A DNA stretch of 24,037 nt from a virus. The DNA lies in IMG/VR virus record IMGVR_UViG_3300045955_000179, positions 1 to 24,037 of that record, one strand, 5' to 3'. Positions within the stretch are counted from its first letter, which is position 1; each line of letters opens with the position of its first letter. Made by a program: the position numbers and the translations under genes. Below, piece after piece: positions 3,446-20,545 of the stretch. The notes below the pieces were generated by a model. That model was not told the origin of the DNA and did no database searches. It worked only from the letters and a program-made list of their open reading frames with translations.

Positions 3446-5326
3446 CTACACCAGCCCCACCAGAGAGAGCTCGTGCGGCATGTGCCGCATGACAGTGCGA
3501 GCAACCTCGCGGCCATCGAGATTCGTATGCACGTGAATGACCGTCTCGCGCCCACCACCGATCAGCGAGCCCAGCCGATCGAGCGGAATGACCGCCTCCG
3601 TCCCCGCCTCGCCGAGGAGCCCCATCAACGGCCGCGTCACAATCCCGCCCTCCGCGAACTCCGGCGTGTCCGAATTTTTGATCGCCATAACATTCGCGAA
3701 CCCGGCAGCCGCCGCCCCGGCGGCCAACACTAGGTTGAACGGCCACGGGGTCGTCGCGAGCGTCTTGGCGATGGACAGATAGGTCGCGATGATCGCTTCC
3801 GCAATCGCGAAGGCCTTGTACTTCTTCCCGAGGGCACCGAAGATGCCCCCCGCGAGCGTGACGAATCCGGTCATCGTCCTCCCGATCAACTGAGTACTCC
3901 CGACCGCCGCATCAACATATTTGTCGTAATTCATCACCCAGTCAGCGATAACACCACCCATCCTCGTAAACACTGCTGCCGTGGTAAACCCCAACTCGTC
4001 GAAGTGTGCCGCGGTATTGAAGGTCGTCTGGATGACCGACTCCATGAACCTATCAAGGGAAGATTTCGAGCGCTGATCAAACTCCTCCAACTTCAGCGCC
4101 ATGTTTTCGAACTCTTCCTCCATCGTCGGGGCAATGTCTCCGACAATCTGCATCTTGCTGCGAGCCGCCGCCGCGTCGAATTCCGCGAGAGCGTTCCCCA
4201 TCTTCAAGATGTCGTCACTGATGCGATCGCTCGCCGGCTTGAAGGCCTCCATCGACATCTCGCTCCAGTGCTTGGCGATCTTCTTCGTCGTCTTCTCGCT
4301 GTCGTCTCCGAGACCCAGCATCTTGCCCGCCGTGGCCTGCGCCACGGTGCCCACGGCTTCGATGGGCGTGAACATCTTGACGAGTTGGGCATCGGCAGCC
4401 GCCGCACTCGCGGTCAGCCACTCCGCGGCGGTCGCCGCAAATCCCAGCTTTTCTCCCAAGAACGGGATCTTCGTCACGGCCTCAGCGATCAAGGCCAGGA
4501 ACTTCGCGACGGCGGAATAGGCCGCCGTCAATCCGCGCATGATCCAGTCCACGAAGAACCCCGTCACTTGCCCGACGACGTTGGCAATCTGACCGAGCAC
4601 CGTCATCAGCCCAGACAACGCCGGCAGGAGCGGGCCCACGATCTTCGCCGTCACGGCCATCAGCTGCGTGCCCATCAGCCCGAGCTTGTCGCCAAAGTCG
4701 TCGGCGGCCGCGACCGTTTGTTCGTCGATGACGAGGCCAAGGTTTTCGAACTCGGCCGCCGCCTCTGCGAGATTGCCGGTCAGCGCCGGCAGGAGATCCA
4801 CGCCGCCCTTGCCGAACAACGTCTTCGACGCGAGCAGCTGCTCGCCCTTGTTTTGAATATTGCCGACGGCATCGGCAAGTTTGAAAAACTGATCCTCCGG
4901 CCGCATCATGCGAAGGTCCTGGAGGTTCAGTCCGAGCTTGCCGACCAGGCCCGCCAGGCCTTTGTCACCCGAGGCCAACCGGGCGCCGAGCTCGGCTGAG
5001 GCCTTCGCGGCGGCCTCCATCGACACCCCGCTTTGACTCAGGGCGCCCCCGAGCTTTTGTAACCCCGTGGTCGAGATCCCCGTCTTGCCAGACAAATCCG
5101 TGAGCGTGCCGGCAAAGTCGGTCATCGATTTCACGGCGCCGACGATCGCCGTGACGGTGAACGCGCCCGCGACCCACTTTCCGAAGTTGGCGAGTCCCCC
5201 TTGCGTCCCTTCGACTTTCTTTTCGAAGTCGCCGACAGAATTGCCGGCCGACGCGAGTCCGCTCGTGAGCCCGGACCCATCGGTGACGAGCTCGAGGACC
5301 GCCCGCCCGAGGCGCTCGAGACTCAC
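3446..5326 (-). CDS. Tail tape measure protein
   Basis: This 626-residue protein is long, rich in Ala and Gly and mostly helical, as tape measures are. Amphipathic helices follow from the N-terminus (GNSVGDFEKKVEGTQGGLANFGKWVAGAF). Hydrophobic membrane-like stretches lie in the middle (LLPALSGLMTVLGQIANVVG, VTGFFVDWIM) and near the end (AFAIAEAIIATYLSIAKTL, LVLAAGAAAAGFANVMAI). The C-terminus has the typical signature EFAEGGIVTRPLMGLLGEAGTEAVIPLDRL. The GTG start overlaps the stop of the chaperone frame by four bases. Known tape measures span about 0.15 nm per residue, so a tail of roughly 90 nm would be expected, which fits a siphovirus. Confidence 0.95.
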   Translation of the reverse strand: MSLERLGRAVLELVTDGSGLTSGLASAGNSVGDFEKKVEGTQGGLANFGKWVAGAFTVTAIVGAVKSMTDFAGTLTDLSGKTGISTTGLQKLGGALSQSGVSMEAAAKASAELGARLASGDKGLAGLVGKLGLNLQDLRMMRPEDQFFKLADAVGNIQNKGEQLLASKTLFGKGGVDLLPALTGNLAEAAAEFENLGLVIDEQTVAAADDFGDKLGLMGTQLMAVTAKIVGPLLPALSGLMTVLGQIANVVGQVTGFFVDWIMRGLTAAYSAVAKFLALIAEAVTKIPFLGEKLGFAATAAEWLTASAAAADAQLVKMFTPIEAVGTVAQATAGKMLGLGDDSEKTTKKIAKHWSEMSMEAFKPASDRISDDILKMGNALAEFDAAAARSKMQIVGDIAPTMEEEFENMALKLEEFDQRSKSSLDRFMESVIQTTFNTAAHFDELGFTTAAVFTRMGGVIADWVMNYDKYVDAAVGSTQLIGRTMTGFVTLAGGIFGALGKKYKAFAIAEAIIATYLSIAKTLATTPWPFNLVLAAGAAAAGFANVMAIKNSDTPEFAEGGIVTRPLMGLLGEAGTEAVIPLDRLGSLIGGGRETVIHVHTNLDGREVARTVMRHMPHELSLVGLV

Positions 5327-13047: not shown

Positions 13048-13425
13048 TCAAGCAGCAATGCTGCCGAAATTCGCGACGTAGAACCAGATCTCACGCGTCA
13101 CACGTCCACCACCGGTCAATCGGAAATCGAGCGTCAGGACATGCGGCTCATCCTGTTCATTTCCGATGATCGCGTTGTCCGCCTCGGCAAATTGCAAGAC
13201 GAAGAGTCCGGAGGTCAAACTCCCGCCATTCACATCTTTGACTTCTTGACTCGAGCGGCTGTTTAGGATCGTTCCCGTGGCGGCATCGCGCAGCGTGGCG
13301 AGAATACTCGTGACCTGCGCCGGCGCGACGGGCAGACCAGCGGCATCGGTCACGGCGACCCGATACTGATAAGTCGACCGCTCAGGGATCGCCGCAGTCA
13401 CGGGAAAGGTTTTGCGAGCCGTCAT
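13048..13425 (-). CDS. Small beta-rich protein at the end of the adhesin block
   Basis: The 125-residue protein starts MTARKTFPVTAAIPERSTYQYRVAVTDAAGLPV and overlaps the repeat-protein stop by four bases (ATGA). It looks like an immunoglobulin or BppU-N-like sandwich: YRVAVTDAAGLPVAPAQVTSILATLRDAATGTIL, a DVNGGSLTSGLFVLQFAEADNAI hairpin and HVLTLDFRLTGGGRVTREIWFYV. Domains of this sort act in phages as attachment modules for fibres or as small adhesin parts. It has no cysteine and no signal peptide. The coupling to the 901-residue protein suggests that the two work together, but the function is not known. Confidence 0.7.
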   Translation of the reverse strand: MTARKTFPVTAAIPERSTYQYRVAVTDAAGLPVAPAQVTSILATLRDAATGTILNSRSSQEVKDVNGGSLTSGLFVLQFAEADNAIIGNEQDEPHVLTLDFRLTGGGRVTREIWFYVANFGSIAA

Positions 13426-16127
13426 GCCGCCCCCAGATCGTCCGCGTCAAACCGAATCGGAGCAGATACCGCATCTGCACCCAAGCCCACAGGGGATCGC
13501 AGATCATCAGCACTGAAGAGGACCAGCGCCACGATCGGATCATCCGTGCGCGTCACCCGCAAGGCGAATGACTGCAGCGCGGCTGCGGTATAGCGCCTCG
13601 CATGCGCTCGCAGAGCGCCGGATCCACTGATCCCTTGCGCCCATGGCGCCGCGGCTTCTTGTGGCGGTTGCGGGCCGTTGACGTCTTGCGGCGTCCACCA
13701 GACGTACGGCGTGACGGCACGAACGGCTGTCCGCCATCGGGCAGCTCCCGCACGGAGACCGGCCCATCCCTGGACCGGTTGCGTCCAGGGATCGGGCTCG
13801 ATGGATGGCCCAGCATCCTGCTGGCTTGGAACTCTGACCCGATGCTGCCGATCCTGATTGAGACGGGCGAGAGATCGAGTCCCACTGACCGGCTGAATCC
13901 ACGTCAGCGGCTGAATCTCGAGCGGGCCGTCCTGGTCTTGCGCGGTCGTCCACAGCTGCAGAGTCGAAGCTCTGACAGCGACAAGGCGGCGCGAGTGAGC
14001 GGCGCGGAGGCTGAATGTCCCGCTGGCAGGCTGCGGCCAGCTGTCCGGCTCGGGCGGCGCGACGAGGGGCTCGTCGGTCCTGGTGAACCGCAGACCACTG
14101 GATCGAGTCGCTGCGGTTGCGAACCTCCCGAGCGCGGCACCATGGGACCTGGTCCCTGCGACCTGCTGGGTCCACGGAGTCGCAGGTTCTTGCGGAGCAA
14201 GAGGACCGTTGACGTCTTGTGGAGTGCGCCAGAGATGACTCGACAGTGATCGGAACGCACCGAGCCAGCGAGCTGCCGATAGACGGAGGCCCGAGGTGCC
14301 CAGGACCGGTTGTGTCCACGTGTCGGGTTCCGGCGTCGGGAAGAGCGGTTCGTCAGTTCTGGTAACGCGAAGAGACAACGAGCGGAGTACTGACGTGGAG
14401 TACTTCGCAGCTGCTCGCAGGAGAGAGGACGTGCCCTGAACTGGCTGCGCCCATGGAACAAGGCCTTCTTGCGGAGGCGGCGGCGCGGAGCCGTCGACTC
14501 CTCCTGCGCGATACCAGAGCAGCCAGGCCAGGTTCTGATACTGCGCCGGGTAGAAGACCGGGCTTTGCCAGCCGCTGAGAGTACCGGACCCGTCATCGCA
14601 AGTGGCCTGCAGCCAGGGGCGGACGCGGACAGAGATCGTCTGGAACCGCCGAATTGTCCGCTGCAGTGAGGCCGTGCCGACGACGGGTTGCGTGAAGCTC
14701 GGTGGCTCGAGCGGCGGTCCGTCGAATTCGGACCCGAACTGCCGCAGTGCTCGAGAGACAACACCACGCCGCCAGAGATCGGCCGCACGCTGCGACAGGA
14801 GAGCAGTACCGAGAACTGGACCTTGATGCGGGTCGACGAGAACCTGGACGTCGGCCCCACCCGCGGCACCACCAACAAAGGCCGGCCAGGGTTTCAGGCC
14901 TCGCCAGGCACTGACACCGACGGTGTCTTGCGTCCAGGGGACCAGAGCCTCCTGTGGCGGGAGCGGGCCGTCGAACTCACTCCCAGACAGACGGACGCCG
15001 GCAGCGATCGCCGCCGTTCTGGCGTATGCCGCGGCCGACCGCGAGAGCGCCCACGTGCCCTGGGTGGGCTGCGTCCAGGCCTCAGGCTCCGCGGCCAGCA
15101 ATGGAACATCGCCAGCCGGGTTGGCGAGATGGAACAGTTGCGCAAGGGCACTGCGCGCGGCCCGCGCTTTCACGTGACGGCCGAGCGATTCGGTGCCGCG
15201 AATGCGCTGGGTCCACAGAGCCTCGGCGACAGGCTCAATTCCAGCAGACCCGCCGACGAAGGCAGGCCACGGCTTCAGCCCGCGCCAGGCCGATACACCG
15301 ACGGCGCTCTGGGTCCACGGTGTCGCGGATTCCTGTGCCGGCAGCGGGCCGCTGTTGTCCTGTGGCGGCGAGAACCAGAACAACAACGAGGCCGCGATGG
15401 CAACGGTCTTTTGACGGGCCGACGCGTGGCGCCGGACACTCTGAGTCCCGAGTACGGGCTCTACGTAGGGATCGTCAACAGGATGAAAAACGATCGTGTA
15501 CGCGGTCCAATCGTCAAGCGTCCCAGTGACATCCCAGACCCCGGCGTCTTCGGAGGACGCGTTGGCTTTTCGGAACGCCCCGCCGACAGTGACGTTGGTC
15601 GTGACCGCGCCGCCCGTTCCGGAGTTCGCGAACTGTTGACCATCGGCGTAGCTGCTCGGGTAGGAGGTGATTCCTGTCTGCTCGCCCTCCATCCCGTAGA
15701 TCGTGAGCCAGCCGTAGTCTTTCGCCCCTCCTGTGGGTGTGCAGGTCGTCGCGTTGGGTTCAGTCCCTGATCCAGTCGCGACGGTCGACAGCTGGGGCGG
15801 GCGGACGTTGGGGTCGGCGGCACCCTCGATCGCCCAGATGACCGCAGCAAACTTCCCGTTCCCATTCGCACCAAGGGTGATCGAGGAGCCTTCAGACCCA
15901 TCCGCGAGCCGCCAGGCCATCGACTGCTGGTCATCGGCCGCGTCAGCACTTTCATCCGTGAGCTCTGTCCACCCACTCGGCCAGGTGACAGCGCCAGGCA
16001 CGGCGCAGCGGAAGACGGCGAAGAGCGTGTCGCCGGGTTGATAGCCGCTCGGGAGGTCGAGGGTGGCTGTGGTGTCGGCGGTCGTGCCGTTGGTGCCAGC
16101 GACTGCTCGAGAGCTGGGGAAAGACAC
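13422..16127 (-). CDS. Large WTQ-repeat protein with N-terminal beta-sandwich
   Basis: A GTG start at 16127 (AGAGGCG six bases upstream) gives 901 residues. Residues 1-217 are a beta-sandwich-like domain: TATLDLPSGYQPGDTLFAVF, WPSGWTELTDE, FAAVIWAIEG and DDWTAYTIVFHPVDD. From residue 220 to 866 about 14 degenerate repeats of 35-50 residues follow, each opening with a form of (P)WTQPVxGTxSLR, continuing with a basic helix-like AxRxxxAVR and ending in PQDxNGPLxPQEPATP or TRTDEPLxxPPEPD. Repeats 2 and 5 carry the identical 17-residue block GVSAWRGLKPWPAFVGG. The end (LFSADDLRSPVGL...) is different. I recognise no family for the repeats. It sits among surface-type genes, so a fibre or adhesin is likely. 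Confidence 0.88.
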   Translation of the reverse strand: MSFPSSRAVAGTNGTTADTTATLDLPSGYQPGDTLFAVFRCAVPGAVTWPSGWTELTDESADAADDQQSMAWRLADGSEGSSITLGANGNGKFAAVIWAIEGAADPNVRPPQLSTVATGSGTEPNATTCTPTGGAKDYGWLTIYGMEGEQTGITSYPSSYADGQQFANSGTGGAVTTNVTVGGAFRKANASSEDAGVWDVTGTLDDWTAYTIVFHPVDDPYVEPVLGTQSVRRHASARQKTVAIAASLLFWFSPPQDNSGPLPAQESATPWTQSAVGVSAWRGLKPWPAFVGGSAGIEPVAEALWTQRIRGTESLGRHVKARAARSALAQLFHLANPAGDVPLLAAEPEAWTQPTQGTWALSRSAAAYARTAAIAAGVRLSGSEFDGPLPPQEALVPWTQDTVGVSAWRGLKPWPAFVGGAAGGADVQVLVDPHQGPVLGTALLSQRAADLWRRGVVSRALRQFGSEFDGPPLEPPSFTQPVVGTASLQRTIRRFQTISVRVRPWLQATCDDGSGTLSGWQSPVFYPAQYQNLAWLLWYRAGGVDGSAPPPPQEGLVPWAQPVQGTSSLLRAAAKYSTSVLRSLSLRVTRTDEPLFPTPEPDTWTQPVLGTSGLRLSAARWLGAFRSLSSHLWRTPQDVNGPLAPQEPATPWTQQVAGTRSHGAALGRFATAATRSSGLRFTRTDEPLVAPPEPDSWPQPASGTFSLRAAHSRRLVAVRASTLQLWTTAQDQDGPLEIQPLTWIQPVSGTRSLARLNQDRQHRVRVPSQQDAGPSIEPDPWTQPVQGWAGLRAGAARWRTAVRAVTPYVWWTPQDVNGPQPPQEAAAPWAQGISGSGALRAHARRYTAAALQSFALRVTRTDDPIVALVLFSADDLRSPVGLGADAVSAPIRFDADDLGAA
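13530..15470 (-). repeat. Array of about 14 protein-level WTQ repeats
   Basis: The repeats are clear in the protein but degenerate at DNA level, so the array is old and under protein-level constraint. In the C-terminal half (residues 560-866) two unit types alternate. Type A ends WxTPQDxNGPLxPQEPATP; type B ends LRVTRTDEPLxxPPEPD. Together they make a dimer of about 90 residues. The N-terminal half has a different order with GVSAWRGLKPW units at 277 and 404. One unit near 500-555 is interrupted by a non-repeat piece (WLQATCDDGSG...YQNLAWLLWYR). Confidence 0.85.
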
Positions 16128-16134
16128 GTCGCCT

Positions 16135-16725
16135 CTAGCCCCGCAGCCGCGCCATCGAGCGAGGGACGAATGGGACGCTGGTCATAGCCGGAGATTGACC
16201 GCCGCCCCCAATGTCGCCGCCTTCCCAGTCATCAATCAGCGTCCCAGAATTGCCCTGAATCACCACCCCCGCGCGACCACTAGCATGGGTGCTATCAGTG
16301 GCGTTGCCTATCGGCGTTCCATTCTTGTAAGCCGTCAACGTCGTCCCGACCACATCTAGCTTCAGAACGTCTACGTCAGCAGTAAACGACAAGCTTCCGA
16401 TCGAAGCGAGATTGGTCAAGGCGCCAGCGTCGATGCGATCGATCAACACCGTTGTCGGGTTGACGAAATAAGCGCAATACCCATTCTTTGAGGCATCGAG
16501 CCGTACAGCAACACCGCCACCATGAATTCCACCACCGTTAAACGGTTTCACCTGTGCATACTGATCGTTCGCGAACATTCCTCCCGCGTAACGGCCGATG
16601 TGCGGAAAGGCCAATGCGTTCTCATTGCAACAGTTCACGAAGATCCGCAGCGTGCCCTGATCGACCGTCCAGTTCGCATTCAGCGGATCGTCGTTCGCGC
16701 CCGTAAAAGAGTCGGTGAAGACCAT
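16135..16725 (-). CDS. Concanavalin/LamG-like lectin-domain protein
   Basis: The 196-residue protein begins MVFTDSFTGANDDPLNANWTVDQGTLRI, the usual opening of LamG/concanavalin A-like jelly-roll domains ('F.DsF...dg.Ln..W'). It continues with GGGVAVRLDASKNGYCAYFV, TTVLIDRIDAG, TADVDVLKLDVVGTTLTAYKNGTPI and SGRAGVVIQGNSGTLIDDWEGGDI, which are the expected strands. Such domains bind carbohydrate or protein and are frequent in phage adhesins. The C-terminal tail (GGGGQSPAMTSVPFVPRSMARLRG) is a Gly/Pro-rich linker, which may anchor it to another virion part. Its ATG lies one base after the stop of the beta-helix gene. Confidence 0.85.
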   Translation of the reverse strand: MVFTDSFTGANDDPLNANWTVDQGTLRIFVNCCNENALAFPHIGRYAGGMFANDQYAQVKPFNGGGIHGGGVAVRLDASKNGYCAYFVNPTTVLIDRIDAGALTNLASIGSLSFTADVDVLKLDVVGTTLTAYKNGTPIGNATDSTHASGRAGVVIQGNSGTLIDDWEGGDIGGGGQSPAMTSVPFVPRSMARLRG

Positions 16726-16726
16726 C

Positions 16727-19348
16727 TCAATTCACCGTGTGCAACGGGTGCGGATACACGCGGGGCGTGTAGACCCCATTCGTCCACGTGTTATCGGCCG
16801 TGCAGACGTCCAGCGTGCCGTCGTTGGCGCTGCCGTTTGTGGTGTCCCAGTTCCCGCCCTGGTCAGTGCTCCACCAGCTTGGGCCGACGCCTGTCGTTTC
16901 GTTGAAGGTGCAGTTCGACGGCCGCTCCGTCCGCATCCCTGAGCCGATCCCGCTTGTACATGACCCTCCGCTCTGCGGACACACCGAGGCTTTATTGAGG
17001 TCGTGGAAGTATTCTCGGTCCACCACGACGAAATCGGACATCGCGAGGTCAAGCGCCGTGCCGCCATCGGTTTTGAACGTCAACACGCCAGCCAGGCCGG
17101 TGCGATTCGCCGTTGAGTTGGTGATCTCAGGCGTCACGGCGGTCGTGGCGGTGACAGACCGTTGCGACAATACGATTGTCACGTTGGTGTTGTCCGACCC
17201 TCCAGTCGTCCCACGACCGCCCCATCCTGTACTCGACGGACCAGATGACCCGAATGTCGATGGCGTTGTGACGGCAATCGTGTCGGTGCCGAGCCCGGTC
17301 GGGAAGGTGTACGTGGTCGGCCCTTGCAGGGCGTAGTACCCGATCACGATCTCATTCGCTTGAGACAGGGTCCCAGTCGACGGACTGGTGTATGGGCTCG
17401 TGTCATCCGTCACGACGGACGGATTCTTGTCGAACCCCGATGACGGCACCCCCCGCGTGACCCCCATCATTCCGGCTCGCGCCGCGGAGGAGGAATCGTG
17501 CGTGATCGTTACCGTCATGAAGTCGCCGCCGGTCGTGATCCGCGACGTCCAGACCGTCATCCGGAGAGAGCCATTGGTACCGCCATTGCGCGCAGTCCAG
17601 GTGTTACTGTTGTCGTCGGCAATCGTTGGCGTGGAGCCGCCCACGAGATCCGCGAACGCGACCACGACGTCCTGGCCGGCGCTGACGAACCCGCCAAGTG
17701 TGAGCGTCGTCCCCGAGGACTTCGCTTGGTTGTTGTACGTCATCAACCGACAACTGCTCGGGCTGCTCCCAACGAGATCGAACATGGTCGCGGTCGCCGT
17801 GGAGTTGCCCCAGTACTTCATAGGGTCGAGCGCCTGGTCGAACCCGGACCCGTTGTTGGACCCATTGGGTGACGCCGGGTCGTTCTCCTCTGCTGCCTCG
17901 CCGACCAAGCTGTTCGAGCCGTTGATCCATCCCCATCCGATCTGATGCGCGACAGGGTAGCTATCCGGGTACAGCCCAGGCCATCCCAGAATGAAATCGC
18001 ACTGGGCGAGCTTGTAAATCCCGATCAGAATCGCAGGGCCGGTGCCTTCGCTGCCGAAGTCGCACTCGTTGATGTCGTATGCCTCGAACGTATTGTTGAA
18101 GACGTACTCGGTCCCGCCCCTCGTGCCGATCCAGGCGCTCAACGTGAGGAGATCGTCGCAGGTGAATGCGTTGTGGTACACCTCTCGGTGGCGCGAGCCA
18201 GTCACGTTAGAGTCGTAGCCGTGGCCGCTCAATGTGGCGTTGTGCATCTCGTTGAATCGGATCACATCTCGCGCCTGCGACGTCGAATCGATCGTCACCG
18301 CGAACTGATTGAACCGATTCTTCTCGATGTACAGCGAGTCGTCGCCTGTGTCGAGCGCCCCTCTCGTGTGGTTCGTGTCCCAATAGGCTTGGCCCTCATT
18401 GGTCGCATGGACGAGTGCCGGTTGGTTCGTGGTGATATACGGAGAGACTGGGTTATTCTCGAAGCTGTTGCGATAGATCACGCCGCCCTTGGATGCGACG
18501 CGAATTCCCACCCATCCGTACCCGTTAGTAGACAGTGTTAGCTCGAACGAGCAGTGATGCACTACCCATGCATCCCCGGACGACGTTCCGGCAACAACGA
18601 CTCCGTACGTCGGCTGAACCTCAACGCCTTCGGTATGCTCGAACCGGATGTTGCTAAGGATGTTGTGCCCGGTCGTCGCCTCGTAGAGGATGAAGATTGA
18701 CCCCGGAGCTGTACCGCTCGTCCCGGCCTTCAAGGTCGTGCCGCCAGAACTTGCTGAACCCCACGGCGAGGCCCACGACCCCGCGCCGCGCACCTCGACG
18801 TGTTTGTCGGTCCTAAAGAGAATCGAATCGCCCGTGATCGTCGCGGTCCCGGCCGACAGGCAGAGGACGTCGCCGATCGCCGCGCTGTCGATGGCCCCCT
18901 GAATGGCCGAGCCGGTCAGACTGATCCCTGAGGTCGTACAGGGCGGGGCGGCCGGCCCGGCGTCCAGGAATACGCCCAGGCCGATGGCATTCCGTGCGCC
19001 GCCGGCCTCCTGCACGTACCAGTAGCCGAATCCCGCCAGGGATCCGACGCTGACGCTGCTGATGACCACCGAGGTTGACGTCCACGCCCCTTCGGTCTGC
19101 CCAACGCACACGGTACTGGCCGGGTAGGTGCTCGCGTTGCAGAGTTCGACCGTGCCCGTCGAGCTGCCGAAATTGCAGCCGACAATCGTGACCGAGGACC
19201 CTGACCCGATGATGGCCTGAGAGTTCACCACGACCACGGTGACGTAGGGCGTGCAGTTCACCGAGGCCGTGGGCGAGCCCGGTTGGGCGCTCACCGGCGC
19301 GGCCCAGAGCAGGCTAATTGCCAGCAGGCACCAGGAGCACTTGTTCAA
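16727..19348 (-). CDS. Secreted-type TIG / parallel beta-helix protein (tailspike or depolymerase-like)
   Basis: I choose TTG at 19348 (GGGAG nine bases upstream), giving 873 residues. It opens MNKCSWCLLAISLLWAAPVSA, a good Sec signal peptide with a VSA/QP cleavage site. Residues 32-130 resemble an IPT/TIG domain (SGSSVTIVGCNFGSSTGTVEL, STSVVISSV). Residues 140-515 look like a pectate-lyase-type right-handed beta-helix (VLCLSAGTATITGDSI, VEVRGAGSW, LSNIRFEHTEG, WVVHHCSFEL, GVIYRNSFENNP). A beta-sandwich module (about 536-763) is inserted, after which the usual ending resumes (VVVDREYFHDL ... LDVCTADNTW ... TPRVYPHPL). Paired cysteines fit an oxidising environment. A longer in-frame start at 19465 would bury the signal. 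Role: glycan binding or cleavage; catalytic residues cannot be assigned by eye. Confidence 0.88.
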   Translation of the reverse strand: MNKCSWCLLAISLLWAAPVSAQPGSPTASVNCTPYVTVVVVNSQAIIGSGSSVTIVGCNFGSSTGTVELCNASTYPASTVCVGQTEGAWTSTSVVISSVSVGSLAGFGYWYVQEAGGARNAIGLGVFLDAGPAAPPCTTSGISLTGSAIQGAIDSAAIGDVLCLSAGTATITGDSILFRTDKHVEVRGAGSWASPWGSASSGGTTLKAGTSGTAPGSIFILYEATTGHNILSNIRFEHTEGVEVQPTYGVVVAGTSSGDAWVVHHCSFELTLSTNGYGWVGIRVASKGGVIYRNSFENNPVSPYITTNQPALVHATNEGQAYWDTNHTRGALDTGDDSLYIEKNRFNQFAVTIDSTSQARDVIRFNEMHNATLSGHGYDSNVTGSRHREVYHNAFTCDDLLTLSAWIGTRGGTEYVFNNTFEAYDINECDFGSEGTGPAILIGIYKLAQCDFILGWPGLYPDSYPVAHQIGWGWINGSNSLVGEAAEENDPASPNGSNNGSGFDQALDPMKYWGNSTATATMFDLVGSSPSSCRLMTYNNQAKSSGTTLTLGGFVSAGQDVVVAFADLVGGSTPTIADDNSNTWTARNGGTNGSLRMTVWTSRITTGGDFMTVTITHDSSSAARAGMMGVTRGVPSSGFDKNPSVVTDDTSPYTSPSTGTLSQANEIVIGYYALQGPTTYTFPTGLGTDTIAVTTPSTFGSSGPSSTGWGGRGTTGGSDNTNVTIVLSQRSVTATTAVTPEITNSTANRTGLAGVLTFKTDGGTALDLAMSDFVVVDREYFHDLNKASVCPQSGGSCTSGIGSGMRTERPSNCTFNETTGVGPSWWSTDQGGNWDTTNGSANDGTLDVCTADNTWTNGVYTPRVYPHPLHTVN
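16796..16810. repeat. Half-copy of the palindromic element
   Basis: GGCCGTGCAGACGTC is identical to 6416-6430 and, on the other strand, to 23101-23115. The second palindrome arm is lost here (CAGCG follows). It is read in a different codon frame than the other two (DVCTA in the beta-helix protein rather than AVQTSA), so protein similarity does not explain it. Confidence 0.7.
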
Positions 19349-19619
19349 CGGAGGGATCTCCCACCACGCCGCCCACGACCGCGCGTACGCGCCAGAAGTA
19401 GACGCCGGGCCAGAGACTGTGAGCCCAGCTTGTGGTCGGCCGCTCGGTGTTGAGGTTCGCGACATTCAAGAGACCCGCCGCAGTCCCGATCTCAAGGAAG
19501 TAGTGAGTCGCCGAGATGACCGAATTCCACGAGAACGACACGGCAACAGGACCTGGAGCAGGCTCAGGCAGCGAGACTGCTCCAGTCCGGGCCAGGCCGC
19601 GCGCGCCGTATCGCTGCAC
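19314..19619 (-). CDS. Small fibronectin type III-like domain protein
   Basis: A 101-residue frame from a GTG at 19619 runs to a stop at 19314. The end of the protein is a clear FnIII-like module: AVSFSWNSVISATHYFLEIGT, a loop with LNVANLNTERPTTSWAHSLWPGVYFWRVRAVVGG and PSVEQVLLVPAG. The WPGVYFWRVRAV strand is the strongest hallmark. The frame stays open upstream to 19946, but that part overlaps the preceding gene and looks like shadow coding; the GTG lies 22 bases after that gene's stop. Its binding site is weak (GGGTGG). It overlaps the beta-helix start by 35 bases. It may bind sugars or link surface proteins, but a lone FnIII domain gives no specific job. Confidence 0.75.
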   Translation of the reverse strand: MQRYGARGLARTGAVSLPEPAPGPVAVSFSWNSVISATHYFLEIGTAAGLLNVANLNTERPTTSWAHSLWPGVYFWRVRAVVGGVVGDPSVEQVLLVPAGN

Positions 19620-19641: not shown

Positions 19642-20118
19642 CTAGTTCTCTTGGAACTCGCAGGTCGTCTCGACGACAACGGACGCCGAGTTGGCGAGTG
19701 AGCCAATCTCGATGTTTCCGTTCGCGCCGCCGTTCGGCAGCAACGCCGGCGCGTGGTCGACTTCGAGTGCGACCCACCCGCCCATGCCGCCCGTCTGCGC
19801 CACACCGACCGACAGGTGCGTGACCGGCGAGGTGCCAGCGGTGATCGCGCTGGTATCGTCGAACCACGTCGTGTCGGCCGCGCGCGCGTTCGGATTGCGC
19901 TTTGCGGGGGTCTGCGACGTGCCGCCGGAACCGGCCGCGCCACCACGAATCAGCTTGAGCACAGCGCCGCCCGCCGTGCCGAACCTCGCGGCACCGAAGA
20001 GGCCCATGATGCGCGCCATCATCTGGTTGGCAACTGTTGCGGCGCGGAAGTGCGTGCTCAGCGTGTTGGCGGTGCCGTTGGTCGTAATGACCTTCTTGAC
20101 ATCGTAGTAGAAAGGCAC
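19642..20118 (-). CDS. Small virion-like protein at the start of the adhesin block
   Basis: A GTG start with a strong AGGAGG six bases upstream gives 158 residues. It begins MPFYYDVKKVITTNGTANTLSTHFRAATVANQMMARIMGLFGAARF, followed by a Gly-rich AGGAVLKLIRGGAAGSGGTSQTPAKRNPNARAADTTWFDDTSAITAG. It ends with strands HLSVGVAQTGGMGGWVALEVDHAPALLPNGGANGNIEIGSLANSASVVVETTCEFQEN. The last part looks like a jelly-roll edge. I know of no named family. A tail, fibre-foot or capsid-decoration role is plausible from the neighbours. The strong ribosome binding site suggests it is made in quantity. Confidence 0.8.
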   Translation of the reverse strand: MPFYYDVKKVITTNGTANTLSTHFRAATVANQMMARIMGLFGAARFGTAGGAVLKLIRGGAAGSGGTSQTPAKRNPNARAADTTWFDDTSAITAGTSPVTHLSVGVAQTGGMGGWVALEVDHAPALLPNGGANGNIEIGSLANSASVVVETTCEFQEN

Positions 20119-20141: not shown

Positions 20142-20423
20142 TCAGTTCAGCGGTGGCGCAGGTGCGCGTGCGGATGAACGCACGAGCGATTCAGGAATCT
20201 CTGGCACGGGAACCCTCCCGTGCGTGTTGACGCAATCGTCGCAGAGGTAGAAGACGTGCGCGGCCCACGCCTTCGAGATCATTCCACCCGAGGTGCCGCA
20301 GTTGACACAGAAGATTTCCTCCATCCAGCCGAGCAGTCGATGTTTCTTTTCGTTCCTCGATTGGCGCGCGCGCGCGTCGGGAAGGACTTTGGCGATACCT
20401 GACCAAAGAGGATCAAGCGGCAT
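20142..20423 (-). CDS. Small zinc-ribbon protein
   Basis: I start at ATG 20423, where GGAGAGG lies seven bases upstream; the frame is open to an ATG at 20528, but that start sits on the repeats and has no binding site. The 93-residue product is MPLDPLWSGIAKVLPDARAR, a basic stretch, then EEIFCVNCGTSGGMISKAWAAHVFYLCDDCVNTHG. Two CxxC pairs (CVNC and CDDC) spaced about 24 residues apart form a likely zinc ribbon. The end (ARAPAPPLN) is disordered. Such small ribbon proteins bind nucleic acid or protein. It is placed after a gap and may head its own transcription unit together with the adhesin block. Confidence 0.8.
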   Translation of the reverse strand: MPLDPLWSGIAKVLPDARARQSRNEKKHRLLGWMEEIFCVNCGTSGGMISKAWAAHVFYLCDDCVNTHGRVPVPEIPESLVRSSARAPAPPLN

Positions 20424-20545
20424 TGCGCATTCCTCTCCAGATGCGATGGTCAGAGCTTGGATCCATGCGACGACCGCAGGATAACAACGGCGCAGACCGA
20501 TCCTGCACCACTGTTCACAAGTGTTCACAAGTGATCAGAGAGAGA
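20424..20545. promoter_or_regulatory. 122-bp gap with tandem repeats; candidate control region of the adhesin block
   Basis: This is the largest gap inside the operon. It holds two head-to-tail copies of TGTTCACAAG at 20512-20531 and then a degenerate third (TGATCAGAG). Read on the minus strand this gives GTGAACACTTGTGAACA, the same motif as at 23789-23807. No convincing -35/-10 pair was found by eye. The placement upstream of the zinc-ribbon and adhesin genes makes an operator or promoter likely, but that is inference. Confidence 0.5.
20512..20531 (-). repeat. Tandem 10-bp repeats (GTGAACACTT motif)
   Basis: TGTTCACAAG occurs twice in a row on the plus strand. On the coding strand it reads CTTGTGAACA twice. 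One helical turn of spacing (10 bp) is typical for cooperative protein binding. Confidence 0.8.

Follow-up and report, generated by a model that had tools for sequence, protein, structure and literature searches.

What a protein made up mostly of uncatalogued repeats contributes to a phage particle is the question raised by the window, that is, the whole 24,037-base IMG/VR virus record analyzed here. Its minus strand codes for a terminase (gpA type), Cys-rich 104-aa, 158-aa, 912-aa and 196-aa proteins, a 901-aa repeat protein, 125-aa and 69-aa proteins, a lambda-type portal, a protease/capsid fusion, and a tape-measure protein, and the 901-aa ORF is packed tightly among these co-oriented late genes. 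The 901-aa protein, which has a near-identical counterpart in another contig (L002), consists of a 217-residue β-sandwich, 14 repeat units (residues 218–868; termed WTQ units), and a short acidic tail of 33 residues (Table 1). Some 40 residues past its first ATG, the 912-aa protein has a stretch resembling a signal peptide, CSWCLLAISLLWAAPVSAQ, and its true start may be internal.

Table 1 Features of the WTQ locus in the window, and proteins of other contigs that carry the tail motif discussed in the text
Feature	Coordinates	Strand	Basis
901-aa WTQ-repeat protein, whole gene	13422..16127	-	ORF, GTG start
N-terminal domain, residues 1-217, β-sandwich, common to phages with other repeats	15477..16127	-	homologues, AlphaFold2, fold matches
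Array of 14 repeat units (residues 218-868), each with WTQPVxGTxxL, a predicted helix rich in Arg and an acidic linker rich in Pro	13524..15476	-	
Units 2-5, residues 270-432, with both GVSAWRGLKPWPAFVGG units; unit variant recurs in L037/L055/L074	14832..15320	-	
Unit 7, 81 residues, insertion SGWQSPVFYPAQYQNLAWLLWY; identical insertion in L055, L046, L074	14457..14699	-	
Units 8-14, two alternating unit types, dimer of about 93 residues, interrupted by short unit 12	13524..14456	-	
Tail at the C-terminus (residues 869-901), FSADDLRSPVGLGADAVSAPIRFDADDLGAA, with stop; suggested anchor	13422..13523	-	sequence only
125-aa gene directly 3' of the repeat gene, in the gp77-type adaptor slot of L057/L060/L061/L079; not recognizable as gp77	13048..13425	-	
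Conserved protein of 158 aa, also encoded upstream of the WTQ genes of L055, L058, L060, L049, L074; candidate bead/partner	19642..20118	-	
Gene for a 104-aa Cys-rich, zinc-ribbon-like protein; conserved partner of the 158-aa gene	20142..20456	-	
196-aa protein, its gene flanked by the repeat gene and the 912-aa gene; L016 has a homologue	16135..16725	-	
Surface-type protein of 912 aa, its gene upstream of the repeat gene within one run; L016 has a homologue	16727..19465	-	
Proteins with E/D-x-R-x-L/I-x-V tails	L095 6294-7151, L096 3147-4001, L098 about 3470-4001, L099 4292-5482, L092 744-1421		

With a profile built exclusively from the units of other phages, the window protein scored 162.6 bits, as against a maximum of 8.7 over 1000 shuffles; 11 of its units exceeded 10 bits, as none did in any of the 1000 shuffles, and 12 of the 14 scored >5 bits. 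The roughly 14 units that the first-pass annotation had counted in the 901-residue protein are thus real. The peptide GVSAWRGLKPWPAFVGG, likewise reported there as occurring twice unchanged, was indeed found at residues 277–293 and 404–420, whereas the two 17-residue copies are identical in 38/51 nucleotides and differ in 13/51. Tandem Repeats Finder detected no tandem repeat in the window DNA, and the differences within the core motif are concentrated at third codon positions (0.38/0.37/0.64 for the three positions). These results indicate that it is the protein pattern that is kept over a diverged DNA, as had been claimed.

The layout of the array is less uniform than the alternating dimer of about 90 residues described earlier for the second half. 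The dimer itself holds, the best autocorrelation lags of the protein being 177 and 93 residues, but it is evident only in units 8-9-10-11 and 13-14; units 8, 10, and 14 are of a TRTDEP type and units 9, 11, and 13 of a PQDxxGP type, and the short unit 12 breaks the alternation. The first half is irregular, containing two WRGLKPW units and the 81-residue unit 7; unit length ranges from 34 to 81 residues over the array. The unit 7 insertion and a WxGLKxWP unit are common to the window and L055/L074. Many window units are closer to each other than to the units of relatives, which suggests that part of the array was copied more recently; the units of L057, L060, and L061 mostly pair as reciprocal best matches with their order preserved, which argues that their array is old.

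WTQ is an uncatalogued repeat, shared by the window and at least eight further environmental phages. The array matched no family in Pfam, PHROG, NCBIfam, or PDB, and a below-cut-off match of SPMIP11 to L054 (4.9e-4) was judged to be due to chance. Units were found in at least eight further proteins of uncultured phages (L033, L057, L037/L055, L046, L049, L054, L060/L063, L061, and L074), whose end domains are unrelated, so that the earlier proposal of an unrecognized family with homologues in other phages was upheld. Searches of bacterial genomes gave no credible copy: a tandem-motif scan of GTDB genomes yielded two spurious matches only (an RND pump and a simple repeat), a profile scan covering 794 genomes that belong to the same phyla as these two, in which part of the candidates were scored and no positive control was included, yielded none, and a genome scan with the N-terminal alignment A2 yielded no relative. 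A tblastn search of the WTQ proteins against cultured phages, with the low-complexity filter on, also gave no match.

Comparison among the relatives indicates that the N-terminal domain and the array are exchangeable modules. In L033 and L057, a C-terminal LamG lectin is fused to the WTQ repeats. Conversely, homologues of the N-terminal domain (L004–L008, L010, and L015/L016; 50–62% identity) are followed by WPNP units (L004, L007, and L008), by PWLPPAQPLxLPRWPVR units (L015/L016), or elsewhere by no clear repeat. The L015/L016 gene (7001–9274) is syntenic with that of the window and has the same N-terminal domain, and hence represents repeat replacement behind a conserved domain. AlphaFold2 predicted this domain as a β-sandwich (pLDDT about 60–88), for which the fold matches in BFVD were uncharacterized phage proteins and actinophage minor tail proteins; the best PDB match, with a Z of 5.3, was not convincing.

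Each unit is divided strictly into two parts of opposite charge, Arg being confined to the helix part and Asp/Glu to the linker. Among 73 units from nine proteins, Gln occupies position +2 in 72/73 and Gly position +6 in 73/73, figures to be read with a search pattern that itself demanded Gly at +6 and Gln or Glu at +2, and Trp is the first residue in 57/73. Positions 8–28 contain Arg and almost no acidic residue, and positions 31–45 contain acidic residues and almost no Arg or Lys, Lys being rare throughout. The basic/acidic counts are 279/18 in the helix part against 15/218 in the linker, with a p-value that is nominal for such non-independent units. For both the window protein and L061, AlphaFold2 runs with relatives, using shallow alignments and single-chain models, gave one separate helix of about 20 residues per unit at pLDDT about 25–50, joined to the next by a long loop. 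No packed regular repeat fold, either globular or solenoid, was obtained at this low confidence, and the solenoid or bead-chain fold expected earlier was therefore not borne out; on these models, the rigid-solenoid reading is unsupported. Amphipathicity of the unit helix was only weak (p 0.045). The first unit (15327–15476 in the window, with equivalents in L055, L057, L060, and L016) is unusually hydrophobic in many relatives, including those carrying other repeats (AIAIAFVPVI, AALVAASLIFAVSV); a transmembrane assignment was rejected, as the hydrophobicity is only modest in the window.

WTQ genes are always located among virion genes, although their position in the late region varies. The gene lies between those for terminase and portal in the window and L074, as does the gene with other repeats in L016; it precedes the portal gene in L046, falls between the portal and head-protease genes in G002, sits a short way ahead of the major capsid gene in G004, and is distal to the sheath, baseplate, and tail-fiber genes in G001. 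It is thus not fixed behind tail genes. Several WTQ genes are accompanied by those for the 158-aa and Cys-rich proteins, and for the former, a candidate bead, there is no known relative in either PDB or the cultured phages.

A functional clue comes from the neighbor immediately 3' of the WTQ gene. In L061 (8.4e-15) and L057, it belongs to PF23148 (Gp77, the fiber-tail adaptor of podophage GP4), the gene in the same slot of L060 is 50% identical, and in L079 a PF23148 homologue directly follows a gene with another repeat, ETN. Matches of the gp77-like profile to WD40 proteins in PDB were judged spurious, as no single domain passes. Neither the 125-aa downstream gene of the window nor those of L016, L046, and L074 matched the Gp77 profile; on account of its position and size, we propose that the 125-aa gene is equivalent to the gp77 adaptors. 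Moreover, a strongly periodic protein is encoded at or near the adaptor in 5/8 of the cultured phages with gp77-family genes: directly beside it in BcepIL02 (gp56, period 20), Moosehead (28, period 24), and POI1126 (gp16, period 20), and with two small genes in between in Mae-JY22 (period 22) and two genes in Aegeus (25, period 20). The surrounding structural genes exhibit no periodicity. No clear repeat signal was found near gp77 in Itty13, Atu_ph08, and Bernal13, and the repeats of the cultured phages have no sequence similarity to the WTQ units. A C-terminal anchor motif common to the WTQ and gp77-neighbor proteins looked good by eye and failed shuffling. The gp77-neighbor proteins themselves end in repeated E/D-x-R-x-L/I-x-V motifs, such as AETRALVVVAETRALAIAAEVRALTI, perhaps an anchor; in Atu_ph08, the copy is apparently an open frame that lacks annotation. 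In fiber I of GP4, an elongated rope protein reportedly connects a row of gp80 dimers, which gp77 holds in place.

The gp77-family adaptors beside the relatives, the periodic proteins near gp77, and the reported build of GP4 fiber I together make a flexible strand, or rope, of a virion fiber the best reading of the 901-aa protein, for which we estimate a probability of about 0.45; a virion-surface, fiber-type role in the broader sense is likely. We infer that the array would form a string of similar linear segments, each a short Arg-rich helix bounded by the Trp motif and followed by an acidic Pro-rich linker, which may lie extended, its order coming from recurrent contacts with a partner (bead subunits, the 158-aa protein being a candidate) or with its own copies. 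The C-terminal tail would be held by the small adaptor from the next gene, and the opposite end would present the β-sandwich, or the LamG lectin in some relatives, for contact with the host or another surface. The LamG fusions, the occurrence of the N-terminal fold in minor tail proteins, the absence of packing in the AlphaFold2 models, the segregation of Arg and acidic residues, and the virion-gene setting are consistent with the rope, while the downstream gene of the window lacking a Gp77 match, the tails that are not significantly similar, the three cultured phages without a signal, the dissimilarity to cultured-phage repeats, and a candidate bead with no known relative count against it.

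The first-pass annotation preferred a self-folding fibrous or solenoid adhesin, the units of which stack into a rigid rod binding the host directly. The fibrous and adhesive part of that view is plausible from the LamG fusions and the fiber-adaptor neighbors, and the solenoid part is not supported. Regular units of 40–48 residues and the lectin ends of some relatives would suit such a rod, and single-chain models may miss trimeric fibers; however, the unpacked low-confidence helices, the wide range of unit lengths with Pro-rich linkers, and the lack of any fold or sequence relative render it rather unlikely. Low predicted order, a Pro/Ala/Gln-rich composition, and the rapid exchange of the array for other repeats downstream of a common N-terminal domain would be explained by a disordered spacer, a flexible charge-patterned linker that holds the lectin or β-sandwich off the virion with no bound partner. 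Such a spacer is hardly expected to keep Gln at +2 and Gly at +6 nearly invariant, and the retention of units by position among L057, L060, and L061 suggests specific contacts, so that we consider this reading improbable as well.

The array is also basic (pI 10.6), with Arg-rich segments nearly free of acid, and its gene is often found among head genes, as might be anticipated for a head-associated or ejected protein binding packaged DNA. This assignment is very unlikely in view of the lectin-domain fusions, the G001 gene lying beyond the baseplate and tail-fiber genes, the acidic linkers that match the basic segments, and the small net charge in several relatives. Finally, a spurious reading frame or assembly artefact, suggested by a codon-position GC contrast below that of the neighboring genes, has a negligible chance, being refuted by homologues in which the protein is conserved across independent contigs with diverged DNA.

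The WTQ array is not the only one of its kind. Large proteins in other environmental phages (L004, L007, L008, and L021–L026) are filled by a second uncatalogued repeat, WPNP (FNQxDWPxP...R...TW), with units of about 32 residues; a common origin with WTQ found no support (hhalign probability 0.3%) despite the N-terminal domain shared by L004, L007, and L008. The WPNP proteins of L021/L024 have a basic C-terminus, GGHARAKALTSKQRSSIASKAASIRW, resembling small DNA-binding tails, and that of L007 (1409–3733) ends in HNNLQPYIAVYHWYRIA, like tail-collar or short-fiber ends (weak Gp10_C and PHROG tail matches). A third uncatalogued repeat, ETN (ETNxHFxGRF....L.RF....D...GPLPxQ), is found in L082 (2039–4387), L079 (1090–2034), L085 (12427–13506), and L090 (5330–6154), where its gene follows that for the 158-aa protein; other contigs with the gene for the 158-aa protein also encode further W/R/P-rich repeat proteins, including ETN in these four. 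Only the acidic linker D..GPLxxQ-ET aligns between ETN and WTQ units (probability 21.8%). In L082, an extra C-terminal stretch, β-rich by eye, is fused to the repeats.

It is conceivable, if on balance doubtful, that beads-on-a-rope virion fibers constitute a widespread unannotated class, in which one gene encodes a tandem-motif strand whose copy number sets the bead count, unrelated motifs (WTQ, WPNP, ETN, and PWLPP) fill an equivalent gene slot, and the lectin or β-sandwich ends are exchangeable. Fiber strands of the rope type are known from one solved phage and are not known to have been linked to WTQ repeats before. Environmental phages commonly encode large virion proteins of unrecognized repeats, which usually stay annotated as "hypothetical"; the link to a fiber adaptor gives them a testable role and permits annotation by context where sequence fails. 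If the motif count sets the fiber length, it would be a simple ruler for a virion appendage.

Several known systems can be compared with this proposal. The bead-chain neck fibers of Anabaena myophage A-1(L), gp80–gp82, are flexible, beaded, and made of repeated units at the head-tail neck (PMC10966104), which resembles in architecture the strand proposed for WTQ; unlike it, they are separate trimers arranged head to tail with no rope protein (PMC10966104). In Burkholderia phage BcepIL02, a tandem-repeat virion structural protein (gp56) similarly adjoins a gp77-family gene (gp57), but its units are Gly/Ala-rich and of 20–22 residues, as against 40–48 in WTQ, and it has no N-terminal β-sandwich. 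In Gordonia phage Moosehead, the tandem-repeat protein of gene 28 adjoins the adaptor of gene 27 (gp77 family) and has a terminal domain that is sandwich-like in its sequence pattern by eye, although the units are of 24 residues, the domain is at the other end, and the adaptor gene lies upstream rather than downstream. The comparison with GP4 fiber I (gp80 beads, rope protein, and gp77) is one of genes, not of repeat sequences: GP4 is a podophage, whereas a tape-measure gene is present in the window and a contractile sheath in G001, and the 3' gene of the window is not recognizable as gp77. In likeness to that fiber, a gp77 homologue adjoins WTQ and ETN genes, small partner genes are located nearby, and an extended strand of multiple parts would be expected.
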